Position numbers and translations under genes: made by a program
The notes under the pieces: generated by a model
The model's database searches: none
Told to the model about the DNA's origin: nothing
The model's input: the letters and a program-made list of their open reading frames with translations, nothing else
Shown here: positions 10,794-32,543 of the stretch, one piece after another
Numbering within the stretch: the first letter of the stretch is position 1
Layout: each line of letters begins with the position of its first letter
Source of the DNA: Prasinococcaceae sp. CCMP 1430
Lineage: Eukaryota; Prasinodermophyta; Palmophyllophyceae; Prasinococcales; Prasinococcaceae
DNA length: 34,247 nucleotides
Direction: 5' to 3'
NCBI GenBank assembly: GCA_013416795.1
Contig: RQSC01000002.1
Coordinates: forward strand, 599,326 to 633,572

Positions 10794-11068
10794 CGTCGGT
10801 CGTGCGACGTGCCAATTCCGGATCCAATCACCGCTCACATTCGATTCGGAGGGCGCGGACCGTCGATCGGCGCGGGAGTCGCGAGGATCTTTTTCCCGCG
10901 TCTGAGGACAGACTGCTGCGCTGCGAGGCACCGTCGGTCGTGCGACGTGCCAATTCCGGATCCAATCACCGCTCACATTCGATTCGGAGGGCGCGGACCG
11001 TCGATCGGGGCGGGCGTCGCGAGGATCTTTTTCCCGCGTCTGAGGCCAGACTGCTGCGCTGCGAGGCA
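10794..11068. repeat. 138-bp direct tandem duplication
   Basis: Two copies, 10794-10930 and 10932-11068, repeat with a period of 138 bp and differ at only about three positions (GGCGCGGGAGTCG versus GGGGCGGGCGTCG, and GGACAGA versus GGCCAGA). They lie between the divergent basic-protein gene (ATG 10421, -) and ATPase gene (ATG 11456, +), so they duplicate part of a probable bidirectional promoter. The unit contains ATTCCGGATCCAATCACC, with a CCAAT-type box. Each copy is open for 46 codons in some frames because the period is a multiple of three, but no protein motif is seen. Confidence 0.93.

Positions 11069-26025: not shown

Positions 26026-26057
<32 letters not shown>
26026..26057. repeat. 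32-base G homopolymer
   Basis: An uninterrupted G run on the + strand, C on the minus strand. Its true length is doubtful in any assembly. Confidence 0.9.
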
Positions 26058-26413
26058 CGAGAGCGAGCGCGCGAGCGGAGAGGATGGGGGATCACCCTTC
26101 TCCCACCATCTCGTCTCTCGCCGCCCCCATCGCCCCGCGCGATCGCGCGCCGTCGCCGCCCCCCTCTCGCCGGTCCCCCCACCCCGCCTCCCCCCAAAAC
26201 AGCAAAAAAAAACCATAGACCCTAAACCCCAAATCGGCGGCGGCTGTCGACGCCCGCCAGGTGGCGAGGTCACTCCGCAGGGGCGTTTCGCGCGGCGGTT
26301 GCGGTTGCGCCCGGCGTTTTTCGGCGGGAAAACACCGGAACGGATGCGAAACCAGTCCTTTCGTCCCCCTCCCCGCGCTTCCTTTTCGGGGCCGCGCGCG
26401 GCCGGATCCGGGT

Positions 26414-26558
26414 NACACACACACACACACACACACACTTGCACGCACACACGCACACGCACACGCACACACACCACACGCACACACACACGCACACGCA
26501 CATGCACACAAACTCACACACGAAGATGCACGCACACGCACACGCACACACACACACA

Positions 26559-26599
<41 letters not shown>

Positions 26600-26625
26600 A
26601 CGCACACATGCGCACGCACACGCGC
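26414..26625. repeat. Long CA/CG-rich microsatellite preceded by an unknown base
   Basis: About 210 bp of CA repeats with CG and TG interruptions. The unknown base at 26414 directly at its edge suggests an assembly join and possibly missing repeat length. Confidence 0.9.
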
Positions 26626-27056
26626 ACCGCGCCCGCGCCGCGCGGCGCGCGAGTGGCGCCACGGCCGTGGCCTGCTGCGCGCATGCAGGCTCGCGCCCAC
26701 GCGCGAAAGCGCAACAAAGGAAAAAGAGGAAGAAAACGAACCCCAAACACGTACGGCGGTCTTTAGGGTACGTGCCTGCGACTTCGGCGCCCATTACGTT
26801 CTAAGTGATGAGAGAAATGAAAACGGGTTTGCGGATTCGCGTATCGCCTTTGATTTTGATGTGTTCGGCAACGGCGGGGCGCAGGCGGGCGGGAGGAGGG
26901 GCGCCGCGGGGGAACGGACTGCGGGAGCGCGCGAAGAGGTGCGCGGCGCGCGGCGCGGGGCGCGCGCCACAGCAGCCACGGCGCGCGCGCGCACGCCCAG
27001 CCTTCCCCCATCCAACCCCACCACCCTTCTCCCGGGCGCTCGTGGCCGCAGCAGCC

Positions 27057-28264: not shown

Positions 28265-29941
28265 TCACACCGTTGCGACCAGTCCAAGCCTGTTCACCCA
28301 TGCGCTCAGCGGCGTGTCCCGTTGTGGCATCGTCGCTGCCATGCGCCCCATGGGATGAGCGGGCGCAAGGAGCTCAACGTTCGCGAGACAGTGCGCGAGC
28401 CACTGCCCCACTGGTCGTGCGATTTCGGCACCTCGGCTGGCCGTTGGATCTGCGACTGTGATACCTGCTGGCGCAGTAGCTTCCAGCAGCTGTCGACACA
28501 TCGCCAAGCTGCCATCCCCCGTGACGTTGGCATCACGGGCCAGGGCGTTCGTGGCTGACGCCCTGAAGAGAGCCTCGGCTGTTCGCTCCAGGGCAGCGCT
28601 GAGGGATCCGAGCGCTGGTGGAAGCATAGATGCGTCGTTGATACGCGCGGCAGCAACGCCCTCCACGCCGCTGCTCTCAGAGGGATGCTCTGAGCGTGCG
28701 CCATGCTCAAGCTGACCCGCAAGCTCACAGAGCGGCCACGGGAGCACGTCGCAGAGCTGGTGTGCGCCAATAAGACCATCCGTTGGGCCGACGTTTCCGC
28801 GCAGACCGAGTGCCGTACCTCCTCCCATCGCGTAGCGACTGCTCCCGCGCACACTGGAAACCGGAGGAGGACAACCACCATCAGTCTGGATGCGCCCTTC
28901 GTTCAGTCCGAGCGCATTTAGGCTCACCAGAGGGCGCCGGTAAGCCCACACAGGGAAGAGCGGCGGGTCAAAGAGAGGCACGCTTTCGCCGATGCCAGTG
29001 CTACTGCCGCCGCCTGCCGCGCGGCGATGGCGGCGTGGGCCAGTCGGTTGTTGCTCGCGCTCCAATGCGCGCAGATGTGTCAATGCTCGCATCTCCTCGA
29101 GTGCCATGGCACCGCCACCCGCACATCGCGCCGCCGCCGCGAGAGCTGCAACCGCCGATCTGTTTGGCAGACGCTGTGGCGCGTCGGTCGCGACGGGCAT
29201 AGCCGCCACAGCATCGGAGCGTACCGCCGAATCGGTACCGCCCACCTGCCAAATGACCGCCGAGTGACCCTTCACCTCCAGCGCCTCTGTCAGCACAGCT
29301 CCTATAGACAAAAATGAACCGAGCTTCCTGAGCTCGGCAACTTCTGCTGACGCGACGGCAGCGGGAATGTCCCCTCCCATGCGCGCGTTAGCCACCGCTG
29401 CCTGTCGCGACAGTCCCTCTGGTGTCACGGGGACGAGCAAGCTGTCTCTGGCGACGGTGGCGGTGCCATTGTCGCGGCGATTTCCTCCCTCGCCCAAGGC
29501 GGCAGCGATGGCGCGCCGTGCACAGGTCAGCAGCTGCAATTCCTTCTCGCCTTGATCAGACTCTCTGCTGCCGTCGATGGCGAGAGCAAGCATCCAAGCC
29601 CCAGGGGCGGACGCCTCCGCGGCCACCGCGAACGCCGCGAGCGCTGCTGCAACAGACGCATCTTCGCCCCGGCATGAGGCCGGGGGCAGCGCGCGCCCAG
29701 CGTGCCCCACGCCACCCATGACGGTATACGCAACACCCACGAGCACAGCGCCGCCCCTCACTCGGCCCTTTGCCAGGCGCGCGAGCGCTGCCGCGCCCTC
29801 GTCCTTCCGAGGGCTTGTCAGCGCTCCCGGCGCACCGCTCACGCCTGCCACCTCGGCCCGGGCCGCCGCCGCCGCCGCCGCCGCTGCCGCTGCCACCAGA
29901 AGCAGCAGCGCCACAGCCGCTGCTGGAGAGACCCGGTGCAT
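28265..29941 (-). CDS. Signal-peptide protein of unknown function
   Basis: Single open frame of 558 residues from the ATG at 29941. It starts with a strong hydrophobic signal sequence (MHRVSPAAAVALLLLVAAAA, then a polyalanine run ending near ARAEVAG at 28-34), so it is probably targeted to the secretory pathway or, in a complex-plastid alga, could be part of a bipartite plastid signal. The rest is Ala/Gly-rich with blocks that look structured (SLLVPVTPEGLSRQAAVANARMGG, VAELRKLGSFLSIGAVL, VIWQVGGTDSAV, PLFPVWAYRRPLVSLNALGL, LCDVLPWPLCELAGQL). No family was recognised and no other membrane helix is obvious. Codon use and GC look like the neighbours. I weighed GPI-transamidase GAA1 and glycosyltransferases and found no convincing motif. 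Confidence 0.6.
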   Translation of the reverse strand: MHRVSPAAAVALLLLVAAAAAAAAAAARAEVAGVSGAPGALTSPRKDEGAAALARLAKGRVRGGAVLVGVAYTVMGGVGHAGRALPPASCRGEDASVAAALAAFAVAAEASAPGAWMLALAIDGSRESDQGEKELQLLTCARRAIAAALGEGGNRRDNGTATVARDSLLVPVTPEGLSRQAAVANARMGGDIPAAVASAEVAELRKLGSFLSIGAVLTEALEVKGHSAVIWQVGGTDSAVRSDAVAAMPVATDAPQRLPNRSAVAALAAAARCAGGGAMALEEMRALTHLRALEREQQPTGPRRHRRAAGGGSSTGIGESVPLFDPPLFPVWAYRRPLVSLNALGLNEGRIQTDGGCPPPVSSVRGSSRYAMGGGTALGLRGNVGPTDGLIGAHQLCDVLPWPLCELAGQLEHGARSEHPSESSGVEGVAAARINDASMLPPALGSLSAALERTAEALFRASATNALARDANVTGDGSLAMCRQLLEATAPAGITVADPTASRGAEIARPVGQWLAHCLANVELLAPAHPMGRMAATMPQRDTPLSAWVNRLGLVATV

Positions 29942-30401
29942 GCGGCGGCGGCCGTGGCGGCGGGGCGCATGTCGTGTGGCGCCGCCCCCTCCCGCATGTC
30001 GCCTGGCCCGCCTGGCGCACAGCTGCTCGAGTGCAGGCGCGAGTGCAATAATGCAGCGACACGACTCGTAACAGCCTCTGCGCGCGCCTGAATTAGCTGA
30101 GCAGAGCTGAGGCGTGATATTCGAACCCTGATCTCATGACCTCAAACATGGACCCTATCCGAATCGCACGGCCATGCATGCGGATGCCCACGGCGCCGAG
30201 GTCTCGGGGGGGGGAGCCCCGGGGCTGGCGGTGGCGCGGGCACGCGCGCCTCCTCAGCTGCCTCCGAGGGGACCGGTGCCGGCGCTCGGAGGCTCACGGC
30301 GACGCGCGGGCTGCAGGGGAATCGTATTACACTTCGCGGCGGCGGCGGCAGCAAGTTGGGGCGGCGCCTGACTGGCGCCCCCGCCCGCCTTGCATGGCGT
30401 C
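29942..30401. other. Spacer upstream of the signal-peptide protein gene
   Basis: Both neighbours are on the minus strand. It holds a TTCGAACCCTGATCTCATGACC stretch (about 30119) and G/C runs. TTCGAACC recalls a tRNA T-arm, but no cloverleaf can be built. No gene is seen. Confidence 0.45.
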
Positions 30402-31587
30402 TCATGCGACCCGCGCCCCGCCCTGCGCGGCCTCCTCGTCCTTTGCAAGCGCACTCCACATGAGGGCCGCCCCGGCCGCGTTCACAAGGCCGAGGAGCAG
30501 CAAGCCGCTCTCCACGGCCCCACGCGCGACCAACACTCCGAACGCCATGAAAATGCCCAGCCTGCCTACTACCGTGGATTGGTAGAACGCTCGGAGGCCA
30601 TCCGCGTCGCGGCGCCCCGCGCCGATGTAGTAGCAGCCGAAGGCGCAGCACAGCACGCCAAACACCTGTATCCATCCCTTGGCTATCGTGGAGGTGCTGA
30701 AGAGCATACCAAATGTCTTGAGCGGCGCGAAGAGCAACGCAAGGCCAGCAGCAGCGATGTACGCCCCCGTCAGCAGCGACGCCCGTGCGGCGTTGCGGTC
30801 GGGGCGACCGGACGACCGCCTCATGGCCGCCTCCGCGGACACTGCGCCGTCGCCGCCGAGCCGCTGCGATGGCGAGCACGTGGGCCCGTCAGCGATACGT
30901 CTGCATGGCAGGGCGCCCGCGGCGCGCGAGGCGCCGGCTAGCTTACCTGGGCCGCAGGGGCGATTTCGATTGCGCCGCCGCCGCCAATGGACGCCACCTC
31001 CGCGCCGCTAGCGACCTGCACGTCCTCGTCATCGTCGGGCCCGTACGCGACACTGCCCGCGATACGCAGCATGCTCGGTTGCATCTGAAGCGCAGCAATG
31101 ATGCAGCTCTCGTCGCCGTACACGCCCGCCGTAGCCTCCCCACGTAGGCGGCCCCACACGTACACATCGCCGCCGGCGGTCACCGCGGCTGTCGCCCCGA
31201 GCCAGGAAACGGGACAGAGGAAAGGTGCGGGGGCACGCGGCCAGCACAGGTCAATACATCGAATTGCTTGTCAGCGGGCGCGTCTGGACACCGCCGTCGC
31301 GGGGCGCTCGCAGAGGCGGTGGTGTGCGTTGAACAGAGGGGCGCGCGTGCAGGCGGGCGGGCGCACGTGGGGGTGGGGTGGACGGGCTTGGGGCCCGGAG
31401 GCTGCAGGCCCGCGATTGCCGCACCGTTGGTGTTCACATCCCCATATATGATCAGGTCGCCCTCGGCGCTCTCCGTCTGCCCCCCTCGCAGCGTGCGCCG
31501 CACGACGCGCGCCGGCAGGCGGCGCCGCGGACGGCGCCGGGGGCGCGGACGCGGACGCGGGGATCGAAGCGGCGGACAGGAAGCCAT
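30402..31587 (-). CDS. minC: MinC C-terminal domain apparently fused to a four-helix membrane protein
   Basis: MinC, with MinD, blocks FtsZ assembly and places the division site in bacteria and plastids. Predicted exons 31587-31425, 31188-30947 and 30863-30402 give 288 residues. Intron 1 (donor GTGCGGCAA, acceptor GGCGACAG, phase 1) rebuilds the MinC_C core: TLRGGQTESAEGDLIIYGDV, then NTNAAVTAGGDVYVWGRLRG, GDESCIIAALQMQPSMLRIAG. Intron 2 (donor GTAAGCTAG, acceptor GCCATCGCAG, 83 nt, phase 0) joins EIAPAAQ to RLGGDGAVSAEAAMRRSS. About 125 residues with four hydrophobic segments follow (LLTGAYIAAAGLALLF; WIQVFGVLCCAFGCYYIG; VGRLGIFMAFGVLVA; LLLLGLVNAAGAALMW). Without intron 2, MinC stops 2 codons later and the membrane protein would start at the ATG at 30824. 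The N-terminal FtsZ-inhibiting domain is absent; an Arg/Pro-rich start stands instead. Confidence 0.68.
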
Positions 31588-31616
31588 ACGTGCATCCCGC
31601 GGGCTTCACGCCGTGG

Positions 31617-32543
31617 ATGAAGGCCGACGTGCTGCCGCTGCTTGCCGAGGGCATGGAGGCCGTGCTCGCCGAGGCGGGCCGGTATAAAGCGCGGCTCGTG
31701 GACGGCAGCGAGTTCCCCGACGGCTACAGAGACCCCGAGTGGGCGCCGTGGGACCCGGTGGAGTGGCTCGCGAGGTGGTTGCGCGAACACAATCCGCGAC
31801 GCGTGCGGCCGCCACCGACGCCGCCCCCCCCCGAGAGACTTCCGGTGGACAAACTCGAGTACGAGGACCTCACGCGCGACGAGAAGCTGCAGCTGTGCTT
31901 CATGTTCCTCGACAAGGACGGCGGTGGCTCCCTGGACATGGAGGAGGTCATGGTCCTCGCCGAGGTAGCAGGCGGCTTCAACCCTGCTGACGCGGAAGGG
32001 GCGCTCGCAAAGGCCAGGGAACAGCTGATCGCAATGGACACCGACGGCGACGGCCTGGTGGACGAGGGAGAGTTCGTGGCCGCTATGCGGACGATACTCG
32101 AGCCGTTGGACGACGCGGAGTACGACAAGGCCGTGCGCGGCGTCCTCAGCAAGAAGCTCTACGCCGACATGACCAAGGAAGAGAAATACGACCTGTGCTT
32201 TCGGCAACTCGACCGCGACAACTCGGGCGGCGTGACGATCGAGGAACTCGCGGCCTTTGGCAGCTCGGTGTCGGGCGTGGAAAACTTGGACGACGCAGTC
32301 TTGGAGACGCTGGAGGCGCTCGATGCCGACGGGAGCGGCTCAGTGGAGCGCGAGGAATTTCACATGGCGCTCGAGGAGATCACCGCTGGGCTCAGCCAAG
32401 AAGACTTCGAAGAGGCGCTCAAGAGGTTGTTCGACGTCTTCACGGCGGGTGCGGACGCGCGGCGAAACAGGGCCGCTGGCAGCGGCAAATCCGCCGTCGA
32501 GGAGGCGCTCGAAGGCATCCAGGACGGGACACTGGTGGCTTGA
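31617..32543 (+). CDS. Four EF-hand calcium-binding protein with Dpy-30-like motif
   Basis: 308 residues from the first ATG in frame (31617). Four canonical EF-hand loops are visible: DKDGGGSLDMEE, DTDGDGLVDEGE, DRDNSGGVTIEE and DADGSGSVEREE, arranged as two pairs, so calcium binding is likely. Near the N terminus, DPVEWLARWLREHNP (about 45-59) resembles the Dpy-30/RIIa-type helix common in flagellar proteins, followed by a Pro-rich linker. The frame is open upstream to 31503 with protein-like sequence (RKPYVHPAGFTPW), and a good acceptor (TCTGCCCCCCTCGCAG) ends at 31491. A first exon further upstream, antisense to the MinC gene, is therefore possible. It is divergent from the MinC gene with 29 bp between the two ATGs. 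Role unknown; flagellar calcium sensor is a guess. Confidence 0.85.
   Translation: MKADVLPLLAEGMEAVLAEAGRYKARLVDGSEFPDGYRDPEWAPWDPVEWLARWLREHNPRRVRPPPTPPPPERLPVDKLEYEDLTRDEKLQLCFMFLDKDGGGSLDMEEVMVLAEVAGGFNPADAEGALAKAREQLIAMDTDGDGLVDEGEFVAAMRTILEPLDDAEYDKAVRGVLSKKLYADMTKEEKYDLCFRQLDRDNSGGVTIEELAAFGSSVSGVENLDDAVLETLEALDADGSGSVEREEFHMALEEITAGLSQEDFEEALKRLFDVFTAGADARRNRAAGSGKSAVEEALEGIQDGTLVA

Follow-up and report, generated by a model that had tools for sequence, protein, structure and literature searches.

A predicted membrane-anchored MinC in a prasinococcalean alga: a MinC C-terminal domain joined to four membrane helices in a single gene

We analysed a stretch of 34,247 bases from Prasinococcaceae sp. 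CCMP 1430 (from here on the window, with a GC content of 67.4%) and confirmed by sequence comparison a three-exon gene on the minus strand (31587-30402), whose predicted product of 288 residues consists of a MinC C-terminal domain (MinC_C) and a four-helix membrane domain. The original prediction of one nuclear gene containing both parts was upheld, as the fusion is common to the window and to a related protein, P0005. With moderate confidence we read the product as a plastid MinC that lacks any recognisable N-terminal domain, has acquired a C-terminal four-helix anchor and works with MinD. Table 1 gives the positions of the individual features.

Table 1. Features of the MinC_C membrane fusion gene (window positions)
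Feature	Position	Strand	Remarks
Exon 1	31425..31587	-	ATG, 27-residue leader and start of MinC_C; 5' end provisional
Intron 1	31189..31424	-	236 nt, GT-AG, GTGCGG...CGACAG; splits MinC_C
Exon 2	30947..31188	-	Bulk of MinC_C, up to the final beta strand AIEIAPAAQ
Intron 2	30864..30946	-	83 nt, GT-AG, CAG/GTAAGC...CATCGCAG/CG; P0005 has no intron at the same point
In-frame TAG	30938..30940	-	Two codons inside intron 2
Exon 3	30402..30863	-	~27-residue linker, membrane domain of four helices, short tail, stop codon TGA
PF03775 MinC_C match	30992..31506	-	Residues 28-120, spanning intron 1
R-G-G-Q	31477..31488	-	Aligns at the RSGQ (MinD-binding) site of E. coli MinC
Membrane helix 1	30726..30782	-	Manual bounds, based on hydropathy and model
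Membrane helix 2	30618..30677	-	Manual bounds
Membrane helix 3	30519..30575	-	Manual bounds
Membrane helix 4	30447..30506	-	Manual bounds

The MinC_C core that had been proposed to extend over two exons was recovered by the profile search: the joined protein scored 87.4 bits against PF03775 (cut-off 33.2) and covered positions 1-90 of the 102 in the profile. When the exon frames were searched separately, exon 2 reached 58.8 bits and exon 1 only 21.6 bits, which is below the cut-off. The structure model of exon 2 is all-beta with a mean pLDDT of 80.6 in the best of five models (43.5-58.2 in the other four). The WGRLRG stretch of the domain is invariant in 11 aligned rows and is present in the fusion, as is the last strand. 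RGGQ has three of its four residues in common with RSGQ, the motif reported to bind MinD in E. coli MinC (PMC6803595, PMC5548801), and the MinC match P0013 likewise carries RGGQ. In all seven NCBIfam MinC models listed the joined protein stayed below the cut-off; the best score was obtained with TIGR01222 (88.5 vs. 95.25 bits, profile positions 118-205 of 226). Because these cut-offs were missed we name the locus a MinC_C membrane fusion and not a standard MinC. A search for the N-terminal domain of MinC (PF05209) gave no match in the assembly, and the same search misses the Synechococcus elongatus control too; the MinC match P0015 matches solely through its residues 179-232. The predicted protein, whose 5' end is provisional, has no recognisable N-terminal FtsZ-binding domain. 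It is also predicted not to be soluble, with four putative membrane helices in the same chain.

For intron 1 we selected, among the splice pairs leaving an open frame, the one that met the MinC residue count across GDVN...GDVYVWG. Joined in this way, exons 1 and 2 align without a gap across the intron with 11 MinC matches. The 83-nt GT-AG interval of matching phase and the length of 288 residues had been anticipated as well, and splice sites and open frame agree with both. Excision of intron 2 removes the in-frame TAG and opens the frame into the membrane domain; if the intron is left unspliced the predicted protein ends with ...AAQVS and has no membrane domain. The open frame is preserved in 6 of the 15 donor/acceptor pairs tested at intron 2, and frame agreement by itself is weak evidence for the join. 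The sequence CAGGTAAG occurs a single time in the window, both strands counted together, at the intron 2 junction. An alternative acceptor at 30831 (116-nt intron) is in frame, but it loses the linker common to P0005 and was rejected. Exons 1, 2 and 3 (the last counted from its ATG) have a third-position GC of 0.80-0.81, whereas intron 1 is flat over the positions with 0.72-0.73; two FtsZ frames from the same assembly lie above the fusion exons with 0.94 and 0.91, a difference that counts against our reading of the gene. Overall, the evidence for the join from within the window is suggestive.

Strong evidence for the join comes from sequence comparison with P0005. We searched with the joined protein, scoring the 7993 candidates that shared most words, and obtained 13 proteins: P0001, P0005 and 11 MinC proteins with PF03775. 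In P0005 (256 aa; one cluster with 8 member sequences and 1 contig of 1662 bases, from an ENA record) a single frame connects the MinC_C end to the same membrane domain, uninterrupted by a stop, a Met or an intron. The protein begins within MinC_C, contains an apparent unspliced intron at a different position, deduced from the amino acids, and then resumes with the end of MinC_C. The P0005 segment MEPSQLSIAGVVSFGPEE aligns to MinC_C with a BLOSUM62 score of 58, which was reached by none of 5000 shuffles, and GAEVASVDSDSGRVVISAAGRRFGADG aligns over the window's splice junction with a score of 63, reached by 5 of 5000. Tested with a profile built from the 11 MinC proteins, P0005 without the deduced intron reached 14.3 bits (positions 60-97), compared to a best score of 5.7 bits among 2000 shuffles of the first 70 residues. 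Left unspliced, the protein scored 3.9 bits, no higher than shuffled sequences attain, and -0.1 was obtained for the junction piece on its own; the Pfam search assigned P0005 to no family. Residues 109-249 show 61% identity to the membrane domain. The MinC part of P0005 is short yet collinear and the membrane part clear. Since no Met separates the two parts, the membrane domain of P0005 cannot start on its own ATG, and the single frame makes two separate genes unlikely. The original prediction had proposed a look at related algae for the same fusion; P0005, a protein from a relative, has it, but no junction intron.

We weighed these results against a pair of neighbouring genes, one for a MinC_C protein of 137 residues with the end AAQVS and one for a four-helix protein of 140 residues starting from the ATG at 30824. 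Two features of the window would suit two genes, the in-frame TAG two codons past MinC_C and the ATG at the start of the membrane domain; in addition, three public predictions (P0001, P0002 and P0004) give the pieces of the fusion separately. However, these three look like calls on unspliced DNA, and the protein searches that yielded the pieces P0001-P0004 worked under a length rule that precluded the full-length fusion. The open frame of P0005 over both parts, the position of the window's sole CAGGTAAG and the residues ahead of the ATG, which resemble P0005 (RLGGDG vs. RRFGADG), all speak for a single gene, so that we consider two genes very unlikely. P0001 is near-identical to the membrane domain of the window. 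Its residue 1 is Met where the window has ACG (30881-30879), and since this difference lies inside the predicted intron 2, the source of P0001 is probably a strain or copy that differs slightly from the window. P0004 is 98% identical to the window and has the same ...AAQVS boundary. This boundary would also be expected from one gene with two products, an anchored form when intron 2 is spliced and an anchorless MinC_C when it is retained: retention stops the protein after two residues and keeps the whole matched MinC_C. Intron 2 is absent in P0005, so such a switch would not be clade-wide, and we regard the two-product explanation as improbable.

The four hydrophobic helices of the original prediction were found again in exon 3, as four hydrophobic stretches and as a helical AlphaFold model with a mean pLDDT of 78.2. 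The linker, loop 2-3 and the tail hold 11 basic residues compared to 2 in loops 1-2 and 3-4; for acidic residues the counts are 8 and 1, respectively. This charge pattern fits an N-in, C-in topology, though the contrast is modest once the acids are counted. The membrane domain had no match in the Pfam search. DUF2065 (PF09838) matched neither the window protein nor P0002, and P0003 reached it only weakly (20.0 bits, cut-off 24.3). Fold searches against solved structures gave no clear match for the four-helix domain and a sequence search of solved structures returned 10 weak matches (best E 0.11). No relatives were confirmed among the pattern stretches of genome_contigs (109 and 163) or viral_contigs (39 and 23). 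Identity of the membrane domain is 61-62% with P0005 and 78-81% with P0002. P0003 is a stand-alone helical protein of 129 aa; its membrane domain is related, at 33% identity across 67% of the query, but it has no MinC part.

The 27-residue leader of exon 1 is rich in Arg and Pro, contains no acidic residues and is a possible presequence. A further exon upstream is also possible. We considered upstream MinC exons antisense to the neighbouring gene, but the minus-strand frames at 31452-32336, 31724-32155 and 31271-31720 had no Pfam match with E <= 0.1 and were rejected. The neighbouring gene (31617-32543, plus strand) lies head to head with the fusion and encodes an EF-hand protein, with several EF-hand families above the cut-off and a Dpy-30 motif below it. 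Only 29 bases separate its first in-frame ATG from the start of MinC, and coding-like sequence extends further upstream of that ATG; a misplaced 5' end in one of the two genes is therefore possible. Elsewhere the window contains two tandem copies of a 138-bp unit with 97% matches (10794-11068), a run of 32 Gs with a long AC / CGCACACACG array (26026-26627) and, on the minus strand at 28265-30133, an open frame of 622 aa. In this frame a hydrophobic stretch follows the first Met, and no Pfam family matched with E <= 0.1.

To place the fusion among other division genes we searched the assembly (24.5 Mb, 145 contigs). It contains one MinC_C match. A full-length minD was detected with 362.1 bits, the sole MinD above the family cut-off, and its stretch IRDADRVIGLL, which we read as helix 7, is identical to that of the solved Aquifex MinD. 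The gene adjoins ftsW in plastid-like DNA of 25-30% GC. A MinE-like frame scored 25.2 bits in the assembly (cut-off 25) and 23.2 bits, below the cut-off, as a translated frame. Two FtsZ genes exceed the cut-off, with the ends IPSFLKRRQ and FPWLR; the former we take to be the MinC target. Two ARC6-type matches lie above the cut-off. The search for ARC3 returned weak FtsZ-like matches on contigs C72 and C112, of which the one on C72 was rejected, its frame being read from the sequence as beta-tubulin; the presence of ARC3 in the assembly is possible. The AT-rich minD-ftsW stretch (L002, G000:C136:240210-243983) is located on a contig of 476,838 bp, which far exceeds the 72-86 kb reported for Prasinococcales plastid genomes, and the contig may be chimeric or repeated. 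According to a 2014 survey (PMC4194372), the plastid carries ftsW in some Prasinococcales, in Nephroselmis olivacea and in Picocystis. The suggestion that the fusion replaces MinD is not supported, because full-length minD persists in the same assembly, together with two FtsZ genes and a weak match to MinE.

According to our favoured reading, the protein would be imported into the plastid, with the beta-solenoid of MinC_C on the stromal side and the four helices in the inner envelope. From what is typical of the families, MinC_C would dimerise, bind the plastid-encoded MinD via R-G-G-Q and bind the C-terminal tail of an FtsZ2-type protein. An anchored MinC_C would already be at the membrane; MinD would then be unneeded for bringing it there, since the protein resides there, and a bypass of MinD's recruiting role is possible. 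MinD and MinE would activate the anchored MinC and move it laterally, which would limit the sites of the FtsZ ring. What the sequences show is the structure of the gene, the presence of the fusion in a relative and the co-occurrence of MinD, a MinE-like frame and FtsZ genes in the assembly; inner-envelope location, topology and FtsZ inhibition are inferred. In E. coli, MinC tethered by the transmembrane part of ZipA is reported to block division without MinD, and more strongly with it, and MinC_C itself is reported to have FtsZ-inhibitory activity (PMC6803595). A bolder version, which we hold only tentatively and think rather doubtful, is a natural integral-membrane MinC freed from MinD recruitment: a resident inhibitor of the FtsZ ring in the inner envelope that works without an N-terminal domain and whose arrangement by MinD/MinE relies solely on lateral movement. 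Retention of intron 2 could in that case release an anchorless form in the window species.

The chief rival assigns the work to the membrane domain and makes the dimer and MinD-binding face of MinC_C an adaptor through which MinD/MinE place an envelope protein, with no FtsZ inhibition. It gains from the missing PF05209 match in the assembly (the control being missed by the same search), the good conservation of the membrane domain in P0005 and P0002, the distant relative P0003 that has no MinC, and the report that MinDE provide membrane proteins with a generic cue (PMC6158289). The inhibitory activity reported for MinC_C (PMC6803595) argues against it, as do the presence of an FtsZ with the IPSFLKRRQ end and the lack of a second MinC in the assembly, where the fusion would have to serve; we judge the adaptor unlikely.

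A mitochondrial rather than plastid Min system appears least probable of all. MinC and MinD were predicted to be mitochondrial in Nannochloropsis (PMC3499364) and are listed for Andalucia (PMC7050145). The sole MinD above the cut-off, however, lies in AT-rich plastid-like DNA beside ftsW. An Arg-rich leader would suit mitochondria too. The MinC matches look cyanobacterial, one of the 11 being named (Cyanobacteriota), which points to the plastid.

The fusion resembles bacterial and cyanobacterial MinC (PF03775 / TIGR01222) in its MinC_C with WGRLRG and the last strand, and differs in that no N-terminal domain was found, in RGGQ for RSGQ and in four added helices. The MinD-independent tie to the membrane is shared with the engineered ZipA(TM)-MinC and MinC-MTS of E. 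coli, which are laboratory constructs (PMC6803595) and taken as whole MinC, whereas the algal fusion is natural and contains MinC_C only. The MinC of Chlamydomonas (XP_001692722; Table 1 of PMC4641359) is likewise a nuclear green-algal MinC alongside MinD, MinE, FtsZ and ARC6. ARC3 and PARC6 of land plants are comparable as a MinD-interacting inhibitor of FtsZ assembly placed by an inner-envelope protein, and ARC3 has been postulated as the replacement for MinC there (PMC8646090). The anchor of ARC3 is a separate protein, unlike the built-in anchor of the fusion. To our knowledge ARC3 is not a MinC homologue. Among the titles and abstract openings listed in our searches of the open-access literature, we found no description of a natural MinC_C-membrane fusion.

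MinC is normally soluble, and its MinD-mediated move to the membrane is central to marking the division site. A naturally membrane-embedded MinC makes it possible to ask directly whether this trip from solution to membrane is needed in a plastid. The fusion may also bear on the change of MinC function in green plants, with ARC3 postulated in its place in land plants. In this alga, a regulator of chloroplast division may be fixed to the membrane at all times.
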